Virus record (IMG/VR): IMGVR_UViG_3300046170_000112
Span: 1-27,634 of that record
Source of the DNA: a virus
Reading direction: 5' to 3' (one strand)
DNA: 27,634 nt
Of this stretch, positions 13,256-27,519 are shown in pieces. The notes beneath the pieces were generated by a model. The model had not been told where the DNA came from and did not search any database. It saw only the letters and a list, made by a program, of their open reading frames with translations. Position 1 is the stretch's first letter, and every line of letters starts with the position of its first letter. The translations under genes were made by a program, and so were the position numbers.

Positions 13256-13501
13256 TTAGATTTCCTCTACTGGTGGGAAGGTTACTTCCTCTACTGCGCT
13301 GGATTGTTCCTCTTCTGTGAGGTTGTAACCCGCAACAGGCAAAGCCCACGAAGCTGCACCGATTAGTGGCTTCTTGGTAATGCTAGGGGAGGACACGTAA
13401 CGGGTTCCTGAACCTACCTTATGGTAAGCAAGCCCACGTGCGATGCCCTCTTGTTCTGAGCGTTCCATCGCTTCTTCTTTTGTTTCAAATAATAGGTACA
13501 T
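13256..13501 (-). CDS. small hypothetical protein, 81 aa
   Basis: The product begins MYLLFETKEEAMERSEQEGI, a helix-rich start, and has a middle segment (SGTRYVSSPSI, GAASWALPVAGY) and an acidic C-terminus ending EEVTFPPVEEI. I recognise no domain and see no signal peptide or membrane span. It starts 2 bp after the adhesin stop and ends 1 bp before the small holin-like gene. The pattern resembles small proteins next to tail-fibre genes in other phages, where they may assist fibre assembly, but nothing in the sequence proves that. Confidence 0.7.
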   Translation of the reverse strand: MYLLFETKEEAMERSEQEGIARGLAYHKVGSGTRYVSSPSITKKPLIGAASWALPVAGYNLTEEEQSSAVEEVTFPPVEEI

Positions 13502-21143: not shown

Positions 21144-23230
21144 TACTGCATTCCTTGTGTTTGGACATTACCCATCTGTGCTGGGGCTGTGCCTACACGA
21201 CCAATCTGAGCATTCTGTGCTTGTTGCATTTGGAAGGTATATTGACCAGCGTACTTCTCAAGGCGAGCAGCAAAGGCTTCATCGGTCTGCAAACGCTCCG
21301 CAATATCTGGCTGCTGTGCGTATTGCTGGATAACCTGCATTGCAATCTGCGCTCCCGCTGGACGGGCTGGCATTTCAATACCAGAGAATATCTTTGTAAG
21401 GTCATCGGTTACATCCTTGACCACTTGTTGCTGTGCGCTTTCAACTGGTTGTAGAACAGCGTCAGCCATGATTGGGTCAATGCTAGCGGCAGCAATATCC
21501 AGTAAGCTATCAACATTCATGCGACCATTCGCATTTAATTGATTCAACGCCACGAACTGCTGTAACTTGGACTGAACCGTTTCGGGGTCAGTGTTCTGCA
21601 CATCGAAGCTAATAAGGATGTCAAAGTTTTCGTCAGGGTTCCCCTTGTTGAGGACCTGCGGGTCAGGGATACCTGTTACGCGGAAGAAGACTTCATCGGG
21701 TCCAAAACGCTGGAAGCATTTGTAAGCCATACGAAGCACCTCGGCAGTGTGGCTAAGGAACTTGTCCACCAAGAACTGTTTACGAACTTGGCTGATGGAT
21801 GAGTTCTCGTCCAGTCCTACAAGGCGGTCAGCCAGTTGCAGTTGGGTATTCTCCATCTCAAGCGAGCCACTGTTATAAGCAGGGGTAGGAGCGAAGTCCA
21901 GGTCACCTTTGCGGCGATAAGGAATCATACGTCCTGGTCCCCAGTCACTTGGGGCTTGTCCAACGGGGTGCAGAATAGGCGGTAATGTCGCTAGGCTGTT
22001 TCTGTCAATGCGTGAATCCCGCTCAACCTTGACCTGATTCTGGATACCCCGAAGGACGGAAGGAATAGTAGTAGCATCATATAGACGCTTGCTGTCCTCG
22101 GATAAGCGAGTGACAACTACTGGATAATCTTCGTAGCCATTAAGAAGTTCAAACTTAGCGTAGCCCTGCGTGAACTCGTCACCGCTGAACTCCTTGTGGA
22201 ATACCGTGCAGTAAATGCCCTCTGCGCCGTCTTCTTGGTCAACTAGGCGTTGGTATCCGTAGCAGATTTCAATTAACTCTTCGGCTTCGTAAGCATTATC
22301 AGTAAGGCTAATAGAGCGGCGACCTTCTTGCTCGCGCTCAATACTGTCGATATTAACACCTCGGTATTTTTCAATAACGTGTTCAACAAATCCTTCATCC
22401 CATCCATCGGTTACAACTTTATTTTCTAGTTCTTGTGGTGTGTAGTAAGTACGCCAGAAACAATAGGGCGCACGTTGCGGGTCAGTAACGTATGGTGGGA
22501 AAAAGAAATCACCATCGGGCGCAAGTGTCTTAACATCTGGTGCATTGACTTGACGGCGAACAATAGGAAGTTCAGCTACTCCGCTTTTACGTAATTCTTT
22601 GATTGCTTTCTTGGCCCGCTTGGTAGTGCTACCTGGGAAAATATTTTGAATCAAAAGAACAAGCTCATCGTCCATTTCGCCTGAGTTAATCGCGTCAGCA
22701 ATCTCTGGTGACATCTCGGCAATCTGGTTCAGGTCAAGCGTTTGCAGGAACCTGCGGTCCTCGCGCTGCCATCCAACATAGGTAATCAGAATACCACGCT
22801 CAAGCAGATAGTTAGCACCGAGTTCCATTTCACGATAGAAACGTGGGATATAACCACTTGATACCATCCATTTCAAGAAACCAGATACTACCTTGCTGCG
22901 GGCAATGTCACCGCTCTCAACTGGGAAAGCACGGACGTTTGCACGATTTAATGATGCCATGAACAGCGATACTAGTCGAGTAATGCGCTCATCAATAACA
23001 TGGCACTCAGTGTCCGATGCACCCTCCCAAGGGAAAGCATCAGCACCGTGCTTGCGGTGGTCACGGCTCTTGCCAGGCCACCAGTTGCGGCGGTCGTCAT
23101 AGGACGTGCGGCACAGGTCAAAATACGCCTCAAGCTCATTAACCGTTTGGTCATAAGCATAGCGCAGGGTTGTAATATCGGGTTCGTCACTTACGTAAGT
23201 AAGGGACTCAGAAATTGAATCATTCTGCAT
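21143..23230 (-). CDS. portal protein
   Basis: A 695-aa protein directly downstream of the terminase genes, within the 530-730 aa range of podovirus portals. It forms the dodecameric ring at the capsid vertex through which TerL drives DNA. The N-terminal helical part (ELEAYFDLCRTSYDDRRNWW), the motif FPWEGASDTECHVIDERI, the long helical middle and the C-terminal barrel-like region ending in Gln-rich sequence (QQYAQQPDIAERL; FQMQQAQNAQIG) are as expected for portals with a T7- or P22-like tail. The start overlaps the HTH gene's stop by 11 nt (ATGCAGAATGA). The stop forms TAATG with the next gene. Confidence 0.92.
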   Translation of the reverse strand: MQNDSISESLTYVSDEPDITTLRYAYDQTVNELEAYFDLCRTSYDDRRNWWPGKSRDHRKHGADAFPWEGASDTECHVIDERITRLVSLFMASLNRANVRAFPVESGDIARSKVVSGFLKWMVSSGYIPRFYREMELGANYLLERGILITYVGWQREDRRFLQTLDLNQIAEMSPEIADAINSGEMDDELVLLIQNIFPGSTTKRAKKAIKELRKSGVAELPIVRRQVNAPDVKTLAPDGDFFFPPYVTDPQRAPYCFWRTYYTPQELENKVVTDGWDEGFVEHVIEKYRGVNIDSIEREQEGRRSISLTDNAYEAEELIEICYGYQRLVDQEDGAEGIYCTVFHKEFSGDEFTQGYAKFELLNGYEDYPVVVTRLSEDSKRLYDATTIPSVLRGIQNQVKVERDSRIDRNSLATLPPILHPVGQAPSDWGPGRMIPYRRKGDLDFAPTPAYNSGSLEMENTQLQLADRLVGLDENSSISQVRKQFLVDKFLSHTAEVLRMAYKCFQRFGPDEVFFRVTGIPDPQVLNKGNPDENFDILISFDVQNTDPETVQSKLQQFVALNQLNANGRMNVDSLLDIAAASIDPIMADAVLQPVESAQQQVVKDVTDDLTKIFSGIEMPARPAGAQIAMQVIQQYAQQPDIAERLQTDEAFAARLEKYAGQYTFQMQQAQNAQIGRVGTAPAQMGNVQTQGMQ

Positions 23231-23438: not shown

Positions 23439-23799
23439 GGCGATAGGTAACCCCCTGTGTGTCCTCGATTGCTTCAAAAATAATTACCTTACCCACGAGC
23501 CTACCTTGCCAGCGGCGGTGAATCAAAACGGGTACACGCTTATTTGTAACTGGATGCCTTACATAGTTCCACTTGGGGTTCGGTGCTTCTTGTAACACAA
23601 CTCCCTCAAAGTGCTTAGGAATAATCTCAGTAATACAAAAGGAATCCTCTAGTATTTTAGTTCCCTCTTCGGTAACCCAGGTGTTCTTGCCTGTCCCAGT
23701 AAGACTACCTTCGGGCAGTTTTTCCTGAGCCATCTCAAGAGCTTCATCGAACTCAATCTCGTGTTCCTCTACTATCTGTGTTAGTTTTTTCTTAGCCAT
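23428..23799 (-). CDS. hypothetical protein with HTH-like N-terminus, 123 aa
   Basis: The N-terminal half (LTQIVEEHEIEFDEALEMAQ, then EKLPEGSLTGTGKNTWVTEE, then GTKIL) looks like a winged-helix or HTH-like DNA-binding fold. The C-terminal half is beta-rich (KWNYVRHPVTNKRVPVLIHR; GKVIIFEAIEDTQGVTYRH). I remember proteins of this two-part type next to terminase genes in marine podoviruses, without known function. It has a strong SD (AAGGAGG) before the ATG, unlike most coupled genes here, and it also forms a TAATG overlap with the end of TerL. It may help packaging or act as a regulator. No catalytic residues are visible. Confidence 0.72.
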   Translation of the reverse strand: MAKKKLTQIVEEHEIEFDEALEMAQEKLPEGSLTGTGKNTWVTEEGTKILEDSFCITEIIPKHFEGVVLQEAPNPKWNYVRHPVTNKRVPVLIHRRWQGRLVGKVIIFEAIEDTQGVTYRHVM

Positions 23800-25445
23800 T
23801 AATATCCTCCTTGTCCTGTTGTGGTGGCGTACATATCATTTGAAGCGAAGTAATCAGGTCCGTAGCCACCATTGGACATTCGCAAGTAACGAAGAATATC
23901 GAAGAAGTCCTTAAGGGCCTCATCGTTCTTTCCTCGTGAGTTATAGTTAATCACACTTTCGATAAGGTTTCCGCAGTCCTCGTGTATGTAGCATTGAGGG
24001 CGGTTGGCCTCATCAATGTCATAGTTAGGATTATACGTGAACCACTCATCAAGGGCAGTGCAGCCAATCTGTTCAGTCTGACCATCGGAGGGCAAGAAGC
24101 TCAACCCGTAGTCATTAAATTTAGTAAAGAGGTCAATATTGTTCTCGTTCTCCTTGGCAAAGAAACGGGAGTCCCCGATTCTCTCCATTACATTAATCCC
24201 TAGTTCATCCTCAATCTCCTTGAATACTTCAGTATAACGCTCCACGTCATAGCCGAACTTCTTAGCTGCTGGGCCGTATCTCCACTTCGGGTCCCCGAAC
24301 AATGCCCACTCACCGTAACTACCCCTGTCAGGCCATTCTTTGCGGATATATATTTCACCTTCGGGGGATACACCAGCCCATAGTGCCACATAGTTCCTAG
24401 CAAAGGCTGGGTCAACTACCTGATACCATGTCAATGATTTTACATCTTCTGGGAATACCATCCCGTATTTATTGGGTTCCTTGTTTAGAACATTTATCTC
24501 TGGACTAAAGTTAGGCAGCAACGAAGTCATTGACTTAGTAGGCAAGCCATACGCACGGACCATTATCTTATCCTCGTTCTCGTTACGCAGGTCCTTGGCT
24601 ATACGGTCATAGCCCCCAAAAGGATTCTCGTCCGAGTGCAGGTAAACAACCCCAGCATCCCGCTCAGGGCTGTATTGCTCAACTGGAACCTCGCGTCCAA
24701 GCAGTTCTGCGTGGCGCGTCTTCAAGGTTTGTGAACCTTTCAGATACTCATTTACAAAAGGGGTATATCCGTCTATGGGTGTAAAGCCTAGAAGCATCTT
24801 ACTGTTTCGGGTAGCAAGCCTGAACCGTAAAGTATTAACTAACGCTGCATCGCCCAGGTATTCATCCAGCCATGCCCCGATGTTAAGGCCCGTGGGGTTC
24901 TTGAAGCCGAACTCAAAGCCCTCAAGGATAGTCTGGTTATTGCTGAACTGCGTATATGTCTTGAAGTCAACCCGTGTTCTGGTGTCGGGGAAGATGAAGC
25001 TACTGCCAGTGAACCCATTCTGCATTGAGAAGTTGATGTAGCCGTCAATGCTCTTAGTTTTGCGCCTGAACTCCTTGGGCATCATTTCCCACACCGCAGC
25101 CTGTTGGACCTTTACGGAGGTGTCAGCGTTCTGTGAGAAGCATACAACGTATCCGTCCATCTCATTAGTAACGGACTCCATTAACATCTTGGCGCAACCA
25201 GTGGTTTTACCTGAGCGGTTACCCCCGAAGGTAATTACTTCATCATATTTGGTAAGTGCAGTTCGCATTCGGGACCAGCCCGCCAAATCAAAGCCATGTC
25301 TAAGTGGGTCCTCTTCGGCCGCACGGATGCGTCCCTCGTGCGCCTCATGGAGCTTTTGAAGAAGTTTGGGGTCCAACTCCCCCAGGGATACTATCACCTC
25401 GTCAGAGGGAGCCTGGAGAATTGGGTGCTGTGTGAACTCAAGCAT
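23799..25445 (-). CDS. terminase large subunit (ATPase-nuclease)
   Basis: This 548-aa packaging motor drives DNA into the procapsid and cuts it. The ATPase part has Walker A FGGNRSGKTTGCAK (74-82 core) and an acidic Walker B-like LNIGAWLDE (188-195). Residues 310-350 begin the RNase H-like nuclease, with VVDPAFARNYVALWAG containing the first catalytic aspartate (about D345). IGDSRFFAKENE and the later LYLRMSN-like acidic region (KDFFDILRYLRMSNGG) hold further candidate acidic residues. Size is normal. The start overlaps the 45-aa gene by 8 nt and follows TAG-ATG. The stop makes TAATG with the next gene. Confidence 0.95.
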   Translation of the reverse strand: MLEFTQHPILQAPSDEVIVSLGELDPKLLQKLHEAHEGRIRAAEEDPLRHGFDLAGWSRMRTALTKYDEVITFGGNRSGKTTGCAKMLMESVTNEMDGYVVCFSQNADTSVKVQQAAVWEMMPKEFRRKTKSIDGYINFSMQNGFTGSSFIFPDTRTRVDFKTYTQFSNNQTILEGFEFGFKNPTGLNIGAWLDEYLGDAALVNTLRFRLATRNSKMLLGFTPIDGYTPFVNEYLKGSQTLKTRHAELLGREVPVEQYSPERDAGVVYLHSDENPFGGYDRIAKDLRNENEDKIMVRAYGLPTKSMTSLLPNFSPEINVLNKEPNKYGMVFPEDVKSLTWYQVVDPAFARNYVALWAGVSPEGEIYIRKEWPDRGSYGEWALFGDPKWRYGPAAKKFGYDVERYTEVFKEIEDELGINVMERIGDSRFFAKENENNIDLFTKFNDYGLSFLPSDGQTEQIGCTALDEWFTYNPNYDIDEANRPQCYIHEDCGNLIESVINYNSRGKNDEALKDFFDILRYLRMSNGGYGPDYFASNDMYATTTGQGGY

Positions 25446-25823: not shown

Positions 25824-26078
25824 TTAGTCCTCGCTCTCGTCCTCATCCTGGTTTGAGTCATCCTCGTACTCGTAGTCCCAATCAATATCAAGCGGGTCAC
25901 TGGCATTTAAATCCTCCAACATCTCCTTAGCTAGCATTTTGCCTACTGGCGTGTTGGTGTAGTCATAGTACATATCTCCGTCATCGTCCATTACAATGAA
26001 CAAGAAGCTGGGGAAGTGTTCAGCTAATTGCGCCCTAATGTCGGCGTAAAGGTTGTCGTGTTCTTGGTCAAGTATCAT
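25824..26078 (-). CDS. acidic small protein, 84 aa
   Basis: The protein opens MILDQEHDNLYADIRAQLAE, has a beta-like core (FPSFLFIVMDDDGDMYYDYT) and ends in a strongly acidic tail (DIDWDYEYEDDSNQDEDESE). There is no membrane segment. The start overlaps the TerS stop as ATGA and is preceded by a strong SD (AAGGAGG). Acidic small proteins can mimic DNA or bind basic partners, and this one sits between two DNA-handling proteins, but no function can be assigned from sequence. The stop lies 1 bp before the next start. Confidence 0.75.
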   Translation of the reverse strand: MILDQEHDNLYADIRAQLAEHFPSFLFIVMDDDGDMYYDYTNTPVGKMLAKEMLEDLNASDPLDIDWDYEYEDDSNQDEDESED

Positions 26079-26632
26079 TGTTCCTCCTTGTTGATTATTT
26101 CTGCGTCAATTATCTTTGCCTTTTCAATGCGGTCCTTGGCGGCCTTGATGGTGGCATCGTAGTCCTCCTGGGTGTAAACCTTTCTGTCCTCAGTAATTTG
26201 CGTAGCTTCACCACGGGCTGTTAATGCCTCACGTGCGGCGTTAGCCTTTGCTATTGAGAGTTCCTTGAGGTCCTTGAAGCCAACCTCCATTTCGGGGTCA
26301 TTCTCCATGCGGTCACGCACCTTATCAATCAAGTCTTCCTCTAGGCTGCTGAGATTCAAATAAGCCTTTGCCGCAATCCTGCCGCTGAGGTCCTTGAACT
26401 TGCCCATGTGGTCGGCGTAGTCCGCAAGGACAGATATAACGGTCTCCCTCTCGAAGCCGTATTTGCGAACAAGTCTCGTTTGCGAACTCCCTGTGGAATA
26501 TAAGTAAAGTAACTTAGCCACCTTTTGCGGGTCATATACGCTTAGGCTTTTTACTTGCAGTGCCTCCTTCTGGGATGCTATCTCGCGGATGCTGTCCGCA
26601 ATCTCCTGCATTAGTTCTTCTTTTTCTTCCAT
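26075..26632 (-). CDS. terminase small subunit
   Basis: A 185-aa helical protein, first gene of the late operon. Residues 37-71 form a probable helix-turn-helix (KVAKLLYLYSTGSSQTRLVR, then KYGFERETVISVLAD). The middle is a helical oligomerisation region (AKAYLNLSSLEEDLIDKVRD) and the C-terminal part (DYDATIKAAKDRIEKAKIID) would contact TerL. It recognises the packaging site and loads TerL. The length and architecture fit phage TerS proteins. The 5' end lies only about 7-15 bp from a predicted promoter, so the transcript may be nearly leaderless; no clear SD is visible. Confidence 0.82.
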   Translation of the reverse strand: MEEKEELMQEIADSIREIASQKEALQVKSLSVYDPQKVAKLLYLYSTGSSQTRLVRKYGFERETVISVLADYADHMGKFKDLSGRIAAKAYLNLSSLEEDLIDKVRDRMENDPEMEVGFKDLKELSIAKANAAREALTARGEATQITEDRKVYTQEDYDATIKAAKDRIEKAKIIDAEIINKEEQ

Positions 26633-26638
26633 GATTAG

Positions 26639-26668
26639 ATATTAGTATAACTTATTGATTACTGTCAA
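26639..26668 (-). promoter_or_regulatory. candidate sigma70-type promoter for the late operon
   Basis: On the minus strand TTGACA (26668-26663), an exact -35 consensus, is followed after 18 bp by TAATAT (26644-26639; four of six bases match the -10 consensus). A nearby TATACT (26649-26644) is a better -10 but is only 13 bp from that -35. Transcription would start at about the TerS ATG. There is no other candidate within this gap that lies so close to the operon. Confidence 0.35.
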
Positions 26669-26693: not shown

Positions 26694-26721
26694 TTGACGG
26701 TGTAAGCGTCCATGATACAAT
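26694..26721 (+). promoter_or_regulatory. extended -10 sigma70 promoter, rightward
   Basis: TTGACG at 26694-26699, 16 bp, then TACAAT at 26716-26721, preceded by TG at 26713-26714, gives a good sigma70 promoter with an extended -10. Predicted start near 26728. It would transcribe the structured region that follows and, if not stopped, the early gene at 27295. Confidence 0.55.
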
Positions 26722-26727
26722 CAAAGC

Positions 26728-26834
26728 CTACCTTAAGGCAGCAACATCATACGGCTTCTACATCATAAGAAGTAATACAAAAGTAAGAGCCATACGGCTT
26801 GACTGACCAAAGGAAGGGCTACCTTAAGGAAGGG
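26728..26834. repeat. short direct repeats within the noncoding region
   Basis: Three short sequences occur twice: CTACCTTAAGG at 26728-26738 and 26819-26829 (91 bp apart, each with the palindrome CCTTAAGG), CATACGGCTT at 26748-26757 and 26791-26800 (43 bp apart), and AAGGAAGGG at 26810-26818 and 26826-26834. They may be protein-binding sites, or traces of duplication within the structured locus. Confidence 0.6.
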
Positions 26835-26951
26835 AGGCCATAAGGTAGGGGTGACTTGGGATTCGCCGAACTAAGGCCAGTCCAGCCCATGAGGAAACCT
26901 GCGGGTTCCGATACGTCCCCCCGAAGGGGGCCATGAGTGCTACTTTTTTTT
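26728..26951 (+). ncRNA. candidate structured noncoding RNA
   Basis: The segment starts at the promoter above and holds several nested complementary arms. GGCTTGACTGACC (26796-26808) pairs with GGCCAGTCCAGCC (26875-26887) at 11 of 13 positions, enclosing CTACCTTA (26819-26826) paired with TAAGGTAG (26841-26848). Farther right are GGAAACC/GGGTTCC (26893-26909) and CCCCC-CGAA-GGGGG (26917-26930). A T8 tract lies at 26944-26951, 13 nt after the last stem, so it is not a canonical terminator. On the left, CTTCT/AGAAG (26755-26772) may form. No convincing coding frame spans it; a 77-codon minus-strand frame at 26824-27057 is unsupported. The fold also works on the minus strand, where the last loop is UUCG. 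Family unknown. Confidence 0.4.
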
Positions 26952-27077
26952 GAGGGGTCCCTGATGTATATACTCTACAACGACCGCCCGAAAATCTGAC
27001 CCCCACCCCCCCCCTATAACTTTTGCTAATGCTGGCAGTAATTAGTATTAATGGCAATCAGGTGGCAAGTTTTCCCC

Positions 27078-27145
27078 GTGCATGAGTGTTTTTTCTTTTT
27101 GTCAAAGGGTGATGCATTGCGTGCATGATTGCGTGCATGATTGCC
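27078..27145. repeat. GTGCATGA iterons and 12-bp tandem repeat
   Basis: GTGCATGA occurs at 27078-27085, 27121-27128 and 27133-27140. The last two belong to a tandem 12-bp unit ATTGCGTGCATG at 27116-27127 and 27128-27139, followed by a partial copy ATTGCC at 27140-27145. TGCAT also occurs at 27113-27117. Regularly spaced short repeats like these often bind a replication initiator or repressor dimer. Confidence 0.65.
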
Positions 27146-27294: not shown

Positions 27295-27519
27295 ATGAAA
27301 AACACTATAAATAACCTAAACACCGCAATTTCAGCTCTCAATTCCGCCGCGCTGTTTCTGGACGATAATAACAAAGCGGCTGCTGAATCTATTGAAGCCG
27401 CAATTTTCACGCTTGTGGAATTGTTTGCCAGTCAGCATGACGCCATTTCAAATAATGGAACTGAAAAGGCGATTGAATTACTTACAGAAATTATTAATGA
27501 CGATTTAACCAACCTATAA
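27295..27519 (+). CDS. small early hypothetical protein, 74 aa
   Basis: First gene of the rightward operon. The product, MKNTINNLNTAISALNSAAL, then FLDDNNKAAAESIEAAIF and a C-terminal helix ending ELLTEIINDDLTNL, is acidic and almost wholly helical, with no cysteine, membrane segment or recognised motif. The ATG is preceded by an A/T-rich leader (AATAAATAAATATC), not an SD, and the same leader style precedes the next gene. Small acidic helical proteins are common as first early phage products that act on host proteins, but nothing here identifies a target. The TAA lies in the 12-bp tandem repeat. Confidence 0.75.
   Translation: MKNTINNLNTAISALNSAALFLDDNNKAAAESIEAAIFTLVELFASQHDAISNNGTEKAIELLTEIINDDLTNL

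Follow-up and report, generated by a model that had tools for sequence, protein, structure and literature searches.

What does the gene-free DNA beside the terminase genes of this phage specify: an RNA, a set of DNA sites, or the mere spacing between two genes? The stretch concerned is an interval of 258 nt (26694-26951), which sits between a gene for a protein resembling a terminase small subunit and a rightward gene at 27295. We propose, at a probability of roughly 55%, that this interval encodes a new structured non-coding RNA of the phage, which is probably a stand-alone product with a regulatory or decoy role. The proposal is built on sequence comparison across related phages and concerns a module comprising a promoter, a long-range closing helix, a repeated motif and a variable 3′ part.

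The phage locus

The window, i.e. the whole stretch of DNA analysed here, is a 27,634-base virus record of a tailed phage. Its left part encodes a DnaB helicase and an HNH endonuclease, and a capsid protein of the SU10 type is also encoded. The large terminase subunit (TerL; 23799-25445, minus strand) is recognized by a match to phrog_2 (E 1.9e-12). Upstream of it, on the same strand, lies the gene for a protein of 185 residues (26075-26632), which is predicted to form a helix-turn-helix and, after it, long helices. This protein had zero matches in comparisons to known families, and a fold search with it returned weak matches only, Sf6 TerS among them: we term it TerS-like, a provisional name taken from its position and shape only. 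The gene has a divergent promoter of its own (TTGACA, 18 nt, TAATAT; 26639-26668, minus strand).

A search for the host in genome contigs recovered no relative of either the TerS-like protein or TerL, a scan for tRNAs and tmRNA found none, and a DNA-level comparison with GenBank phages gave a single chance match. Contig ends near the locus were inspected visually in case they marked a fixed genome end; they were scattered.

Organization and promoter of the module

Relatives were gathered by searching IMG/VR with the TerS-like protein, which yielded 334 encoding contigs, 80 of which were kept; more came from two additional searches that used distant members as queries. A module is found at the same place in most of the relatives examined, and the usual order upstream of the TerS-like gene is as follows: the divergent TerS promoter, an outward-facing extended -10, an arm with the core CCWTAAGG, an inner part, the inverted arm, a variable stretch and a T-run element. 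The interval has no conserved coding frame, as 1-base indels and variable inserts break the frames even between near relatives.

The initial annotation had placed an extended -10 promoter at the head of the interval, and a sigma-70-type promoter is indeed present there (26694-26721, plus strand): TTGACG is followed after 16 nt by TACAAT with TG before the -10, the extended -10 reading TGATACAAT. The distance from the extended -10 to the CCWTAAGG core downstream of it, in the first arm (arm A), is 4-11 nt in nearly all dissimilar relatives; modules of the L031/L041/L226 type are without a -10. From this promoter the host sigma-70 RNA polymerase would initiate on the plus strand at about 26725-26728. 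In several clades arm A starts just 1-2 nt after the -10, and because of this the outer pairs of the helix described below would lie upstream of a normal start site in these clades.

A coevolving long-range helix

The conserved stem of the module, which had been missed by the initial annotation, is a long-range helix that we term P1. Its 5′ arm (arm A, CCTACCTTAAGGC, 26727-26739, plus strand) pairs at 12 of 13 positions with its 3′ arm (arm B, GCCATAAGGTAGG, 26837-26849, plus strand), and the two arms coevolve in the relatives. The 13-nt stem that had been singled out instead (26796-26808 with 26875-26887, plus strand) does exist, with 11 Watson-Crick pairs among its 13 positions, as does the 8-bp stem inside it (CTACCTTA/TAAGGTAG); the 13-nt stem, however, is broken in the near relatives L004, L006 and L100. 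A second copy of arm A (A′, 26818-26833, plus strand) can pair locally with arm B in place of A. A switch between the A:B and A′:B pairings was considered and discarded as a general property, since A′ is missing in L100.

To evaluate the pairing of P1, the best duplex for each copy was sought by one and the same procedure in its native 3′ part and in those taken from the remaining copies, a design in which the partner is not picked by complementarity. Across 37 modules the own-partner duplexes averaged -20.6 kcal/mol versus -16.3 kcal/mol for the swapped ones, a result that was equaled in none of 20,000 permutations. Many of the relatives are near copies, and the tests were run on dissimilar subsets: among 23 mutually dissimilar modules the corresponding means were -21.3 and -17.0 (0 of 50,000 permutations), and two control segments put through the 23-module permutation test gave p-values of 0.36 and 0.09. 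Arm A was chosen by its motif, and this choice and the distance limits were fixed after the sequences had been viewed.

The permutation tests alone are free of the bias introduced when the partner arm is chosen by its complementarity, as it was for the remaining measures. With the partner so picked, which biases the figures upward, changes on both sides are seen in 8 of the 13 P1 pairs and 84% of the cells pair; the covariation score, likewise obtained with a complementarity-chosen partner, is 0.39, as against 0.16 for shuffled data and at most 0.11 when the partner is slid. At 89% of sites the outer flanks of A and of B, the latter again picked in this way, are complementary to each other, whereas the left and right flanks of each arm, taken as a palindrome in its own right, mirror one another at only 42% and 38% of positions. 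The outer pairs of P1 are the most variable (C-G, U-A, G-C and A-U occur at one position, for example), and the core CCUUAAGG is nearly fixed. Within the full interval of the window the pairing probability of P1 is only about 0.22. As judged from the relatives, P1 is a conserved secondary structure backed by compensatory change, a hallmark of structured non-coding RNAs of phages; covariation, which had been suggested as a check on the idea of a structured RNA, thus came out in its favor, with P1 as the stem concerned.

Folding of the core and a repeated motif

Taken by itself, the 258-nt interval has a folding z-score of -1.2 on the plus strand, with 20 of 200 shuffles folding equally well, and of -2.1 on the minus strand. 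The earlier argument that so much pairing is unlikely to be only spacing therefore fails on its own, because the interval alone is not unusually structured; it is borne out by way of the relatives, and it is from these only that the significance of the structure comes. The core has a mean z of -3.2 on the plus strand, versus -0.3 for neighboring DNA. It folds just as well on the minus strand (z -3.05), and a comparison of GU with AC mismatches favors neither strand. Strong inner hairpins, with stems of unrelated sequence, occur in many relatives. In the window a possible inner hairpin, P2, joins GGCTTCTAC (26753-26761) to GTAAGAGCC (26783-26791) on the plus strand; the best inner hairpin there is no better than that of shuffled sequence.

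The core also contains an array of a short motif. In the window there are six copies of YCWTAMR on the plus strand between 26731 and 26844, with starts at 26731, 26747, 26763, 26790, 26822 and 26838 (spacings of 16, 16, 27, 32 and 16 nt), and among the modules many YCWTAAR motifs are 14 or 16 nt apart. In 25 modules (3.9 kb) the asymmetric form of the motif is found 37 times on the plus strand versus 6 times on the minus strand, along with 48 occurrences of YCTTAAR; neighboring DNA (3.3 kb) has 7, 1 and 0 of the same classes. These motifs could be binding sites in either RNA or DNA. Elsewhere in the window a lone sequence that closely resembles the arm (TACCATAAGGTAG on the minus strand, 13414-13427) lies within a late-gene reading frame.

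On balance, the complementarity of the flanks, the unrelated inner stems and the folding of the core favor pairing within one strand. As counterpoints there are the equal fold of the minus strand, the repetition of the motif, and the overlap of arm A with the expected start, or its position before it, in several clades.

The 3′ part and the adjoining DNA elements

Beyond P1 the modules are variable. The two terminal hairpins noted earlier are present on the plus strand (26893-26909, and CCCCC-CGAA-GGGGG at 26917-26930, CCCCCCGAAGGGGG), but they constitute an optional double-hairpin insert (26893-26930) between two copies of CCATGAG: comparable inserts are seen in L001 and L003 and in the distant L044, L045, L050, L058 and L067, and are absent in most other modules. 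Short units in the 3′ part (AACCTTAAGGAG, or GGCTACC-GAG-GGTAGGG hairpins) differ in copy number between close relatives (L031, L068, L070, L076; L013-L017).

The T8 tract that closes the interval (26944-26951), also noted earlier, is not supported as the end of the RNA. It belongs to a separate conserved DNA element (26931-27014) of the form CCATGAG-N6-T8-GAGG, TATATA and a C-tract (CCCCCACCCCCCCCC), which adjoins the TerS-like gene on its upstream side in phages both with and without the RNA module. Its general form is TGAG-N6-A-T7-RAGG, TATATATA, about 25 nt and GACCCCCNCCCCCC (in L082 at about 23092-23180). A pattern scan returned 80 matches: 67 of these are beside a TerS-like gene in the right orientation and 13 are chance matches in coding sequence. 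The element is a candidate origin or pac site. We rejected T8 as an intrinsic terminator, since no consistent stem adjoins it and the element exists without the RNA; no intrinsic terminator was found at a consistent place across the modules or before the right arm.

A second T-rich element, E2 (TGWGAR, a T-tract and GGATATATT), lies in the window at about 27081-27120 and is seen in L278, L290 and others. It resembles the first T-run element, is situated 125-280 nt to the right of it, and is common to module-positive and module-less phages. E2 could serve as a promoter for the right arm or belong to an origin.

Distribution and inheritance

Of 75 phages sampled from a deep tree, 44 carry the module, and in the contigs read a scan with the 22-base RNA core gave matches only in the setting upstream of the TerS-like gene. 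When 'module', 'other RNA' and 'none' are mapped as states on the tree of 75 TerS-like proteins, three changes suffice; the module is hence old and has been vertically kept, being lost or replaced along one lineage. Phages with TerS-like proteins of 53-65% identity that have neither the module nor its repeats are also found.

In a sister group (L181, L197, L198, L202 and L203) the same slot is occupied by a different conserved and foldable stretch of about 300 nt. This second RNA candidate is on the minus strand of its loci (L181 2030-2470; L202 50-440), is preceded by a possible extended -10, and had no match in a search of Rfam. Two matches to known RNA families were observed upstream of TerS-like genes, both on the minus strand: RAGATH-24 at L031 787-910 (65.5 bits), about 0.9 kb upstream, and a type II hammerhead ribozyme at L226 157-219 (42.2 bits). 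We advance, as a speculative extension, the idea that in this phage group the space bounded by the TerS promoter and the T-run element might be a dedicated site for non-coding RNAs, in which an ancient repeated-motif RNA gave way along one lineage to an unrelated one of about 300 nt, such RNAs acting early on the host as a multi-site decoy or switch.

Possible function and alternative explanations

In the proposed mechanism the 5′ end of the RNA would be locked into P1, which would close a core of about 125 nt, with the variable 3′ part beyond it. The core would display a series of YCWUAAR motifs, many of them 14 or 16 nt apart, to a partner. With a promoter of its own, the RNA would stand alone, and could in this way act in trans on an RNA-binding partner, to which it would offer a platform or decoy with multiple sites. 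The trans-acting decoy role is the weakest step of this proposal, and we regard it as possible though doubtful. Two more specific versions suggested by the look of the motif were set aside: for a CsrA sponge GGA is not conserved, and a Shine-Dalgarno decoy would leave the conserved YC before WTAAR unexplained by pairing with 16S rRNA. Hairpin promoters of the N4 type, with GAA triloops, are unsupported.

The main competitor, which we hold to be rather unlikely, is a cis-acting leader: the promoter would be a rightward early promoter and the RNA the folded 5′ leader of the right-arm operon, which would act on RNA polymerase by antitermination or attenuation in the manner of HK022 put. Consistent with it, the structure is promoter-proximal, the promoter points toward the right arm and its rightward gene at 27295, no consistent terminator intervenes, and the window has no other good sigma-70 promoter downstream. 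However, the first right-arm gene is about 570 nt away, and phages without the module, such as L137, L141 and L265, likewise have no good sigma-70 promoter visible for their right arms. Given this, and the occurrence of E2 in both types of phage, the right arm does not seem to be driven by the module promoter, and its genes probably use another one. Next in order, and a little less probable still, is an array acting at the level of DNA, in which the CCTTAAGG-like repeats would bind a phage regulator, a replication initiator or the TerS-like protein, the inverted arms being two sites around the promoter start. The near-invariant palindromic core CCTTAAGG, the 14- or 16-nt phasing of the copies, the strand symmetry of the folding and the overlap of arm A with the start site in some clades all fit such an array; against it, the outer flanks of the arms match each other and not their own mirror halves, strong inner hairpins are built from unrelated stems in many relatives, and the repeats are missing from phages with TerS-like proteins of 53-65% identity.

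An RNA linked to packaging or replication, among the roles first suggested for the interval, is improbable, whether it is conceived as a packaging RNA similar to the pRNA of phi29 or as a primer transcript for an origin in the T-run/TATA/C-tract element. The position of the module between the TerS-like gene and this shared element, a possible origin or pac site, would suit either version, yet no pRNA match was obtained at E<=10, TerL is an ordinary phrog_2 member, the DNA element is retained by phages that have no module, and module-less phages with neighboring proteins of 53-65% identity exist. That the interval is an ordinary spacer with chance pairing is scarcely credible: though by itself the interval in the window shows no significant structure on its plus strand, the coevolving P1, the excess folding and the conservation of the promoter in many divergent phages contradict it.

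If it is a stand-alone structured RNA, as we prefer, the module brings an uncatalogued and well-supported RNA to a large group of phages, hardly any of which have been cultured, and its exact coordinates, promoter and helix are now given for testing. Should it act in trans, it would represent a widespread phage tool that is invisible to protein annotation. The different RNA candidate in the same slot of the sister group makes the role of RNAs near terminase genes directly testable.

Comparison with known systems

The initial annotation had recognized no known RNA family in the interval, and Rfam 15 at the gathering cut-off likewise gave no match in the window. A relaxed search (E up to 10) gave only three matches near the interval, all far below the cut-off, and in 20 related loci the only matches were RAGATH-24 and the hammerhead ribozyme mentioned above, both outside the module. 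The module RNA thus appears to belong to no catalogued family; the accompanying literature search was narrow, so that it might conceivably have another name.

Some likenesses to characterized phage RNAs may nevertheless be drawn. The putRNA of HK022 is a cis-acting antitermination RNA (PMC9378689) and is similarly a structured phage RNA placed directly downstream of a promoter facing early genes. In the module, by comparison, there is a core of about 125 nt with one long-range closing helix and a repeated motif, so that the likeness is one of arrangement. The prohead or packaging RNA (pRNA) of phi29 (PMC6765105) is again a short structured phage RNA, and the module RNA is near packaging genes. 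The model of phi29-type pRNA, however, had no match at E<=10, and where phi29-type phages have a packaging ATPase without a terminase small subunit, this phage has the phrog_2 TerL with a TerS-like helix-turn-helix gene upstream.

GOLLD and ROOL are structured RNAs of bacteria and phages that were found by comparative genomics; to our knowledge, no function has been assigned to them. They are large structured RNAs (PMC12286853), much larger than the module RNA, and neither the latter nor the 300-nt RNA of the sister group has a match in Rfam. Phage C75C1 (OQ984151), the nearest GenBank phage, differs from the window in being entirely without the promoter-plus-RNA module, but its genes in the neighborhood of TerL and the TerS-like gene are arranged in the same order, and it has the same T-run/TATA/C-tract element.
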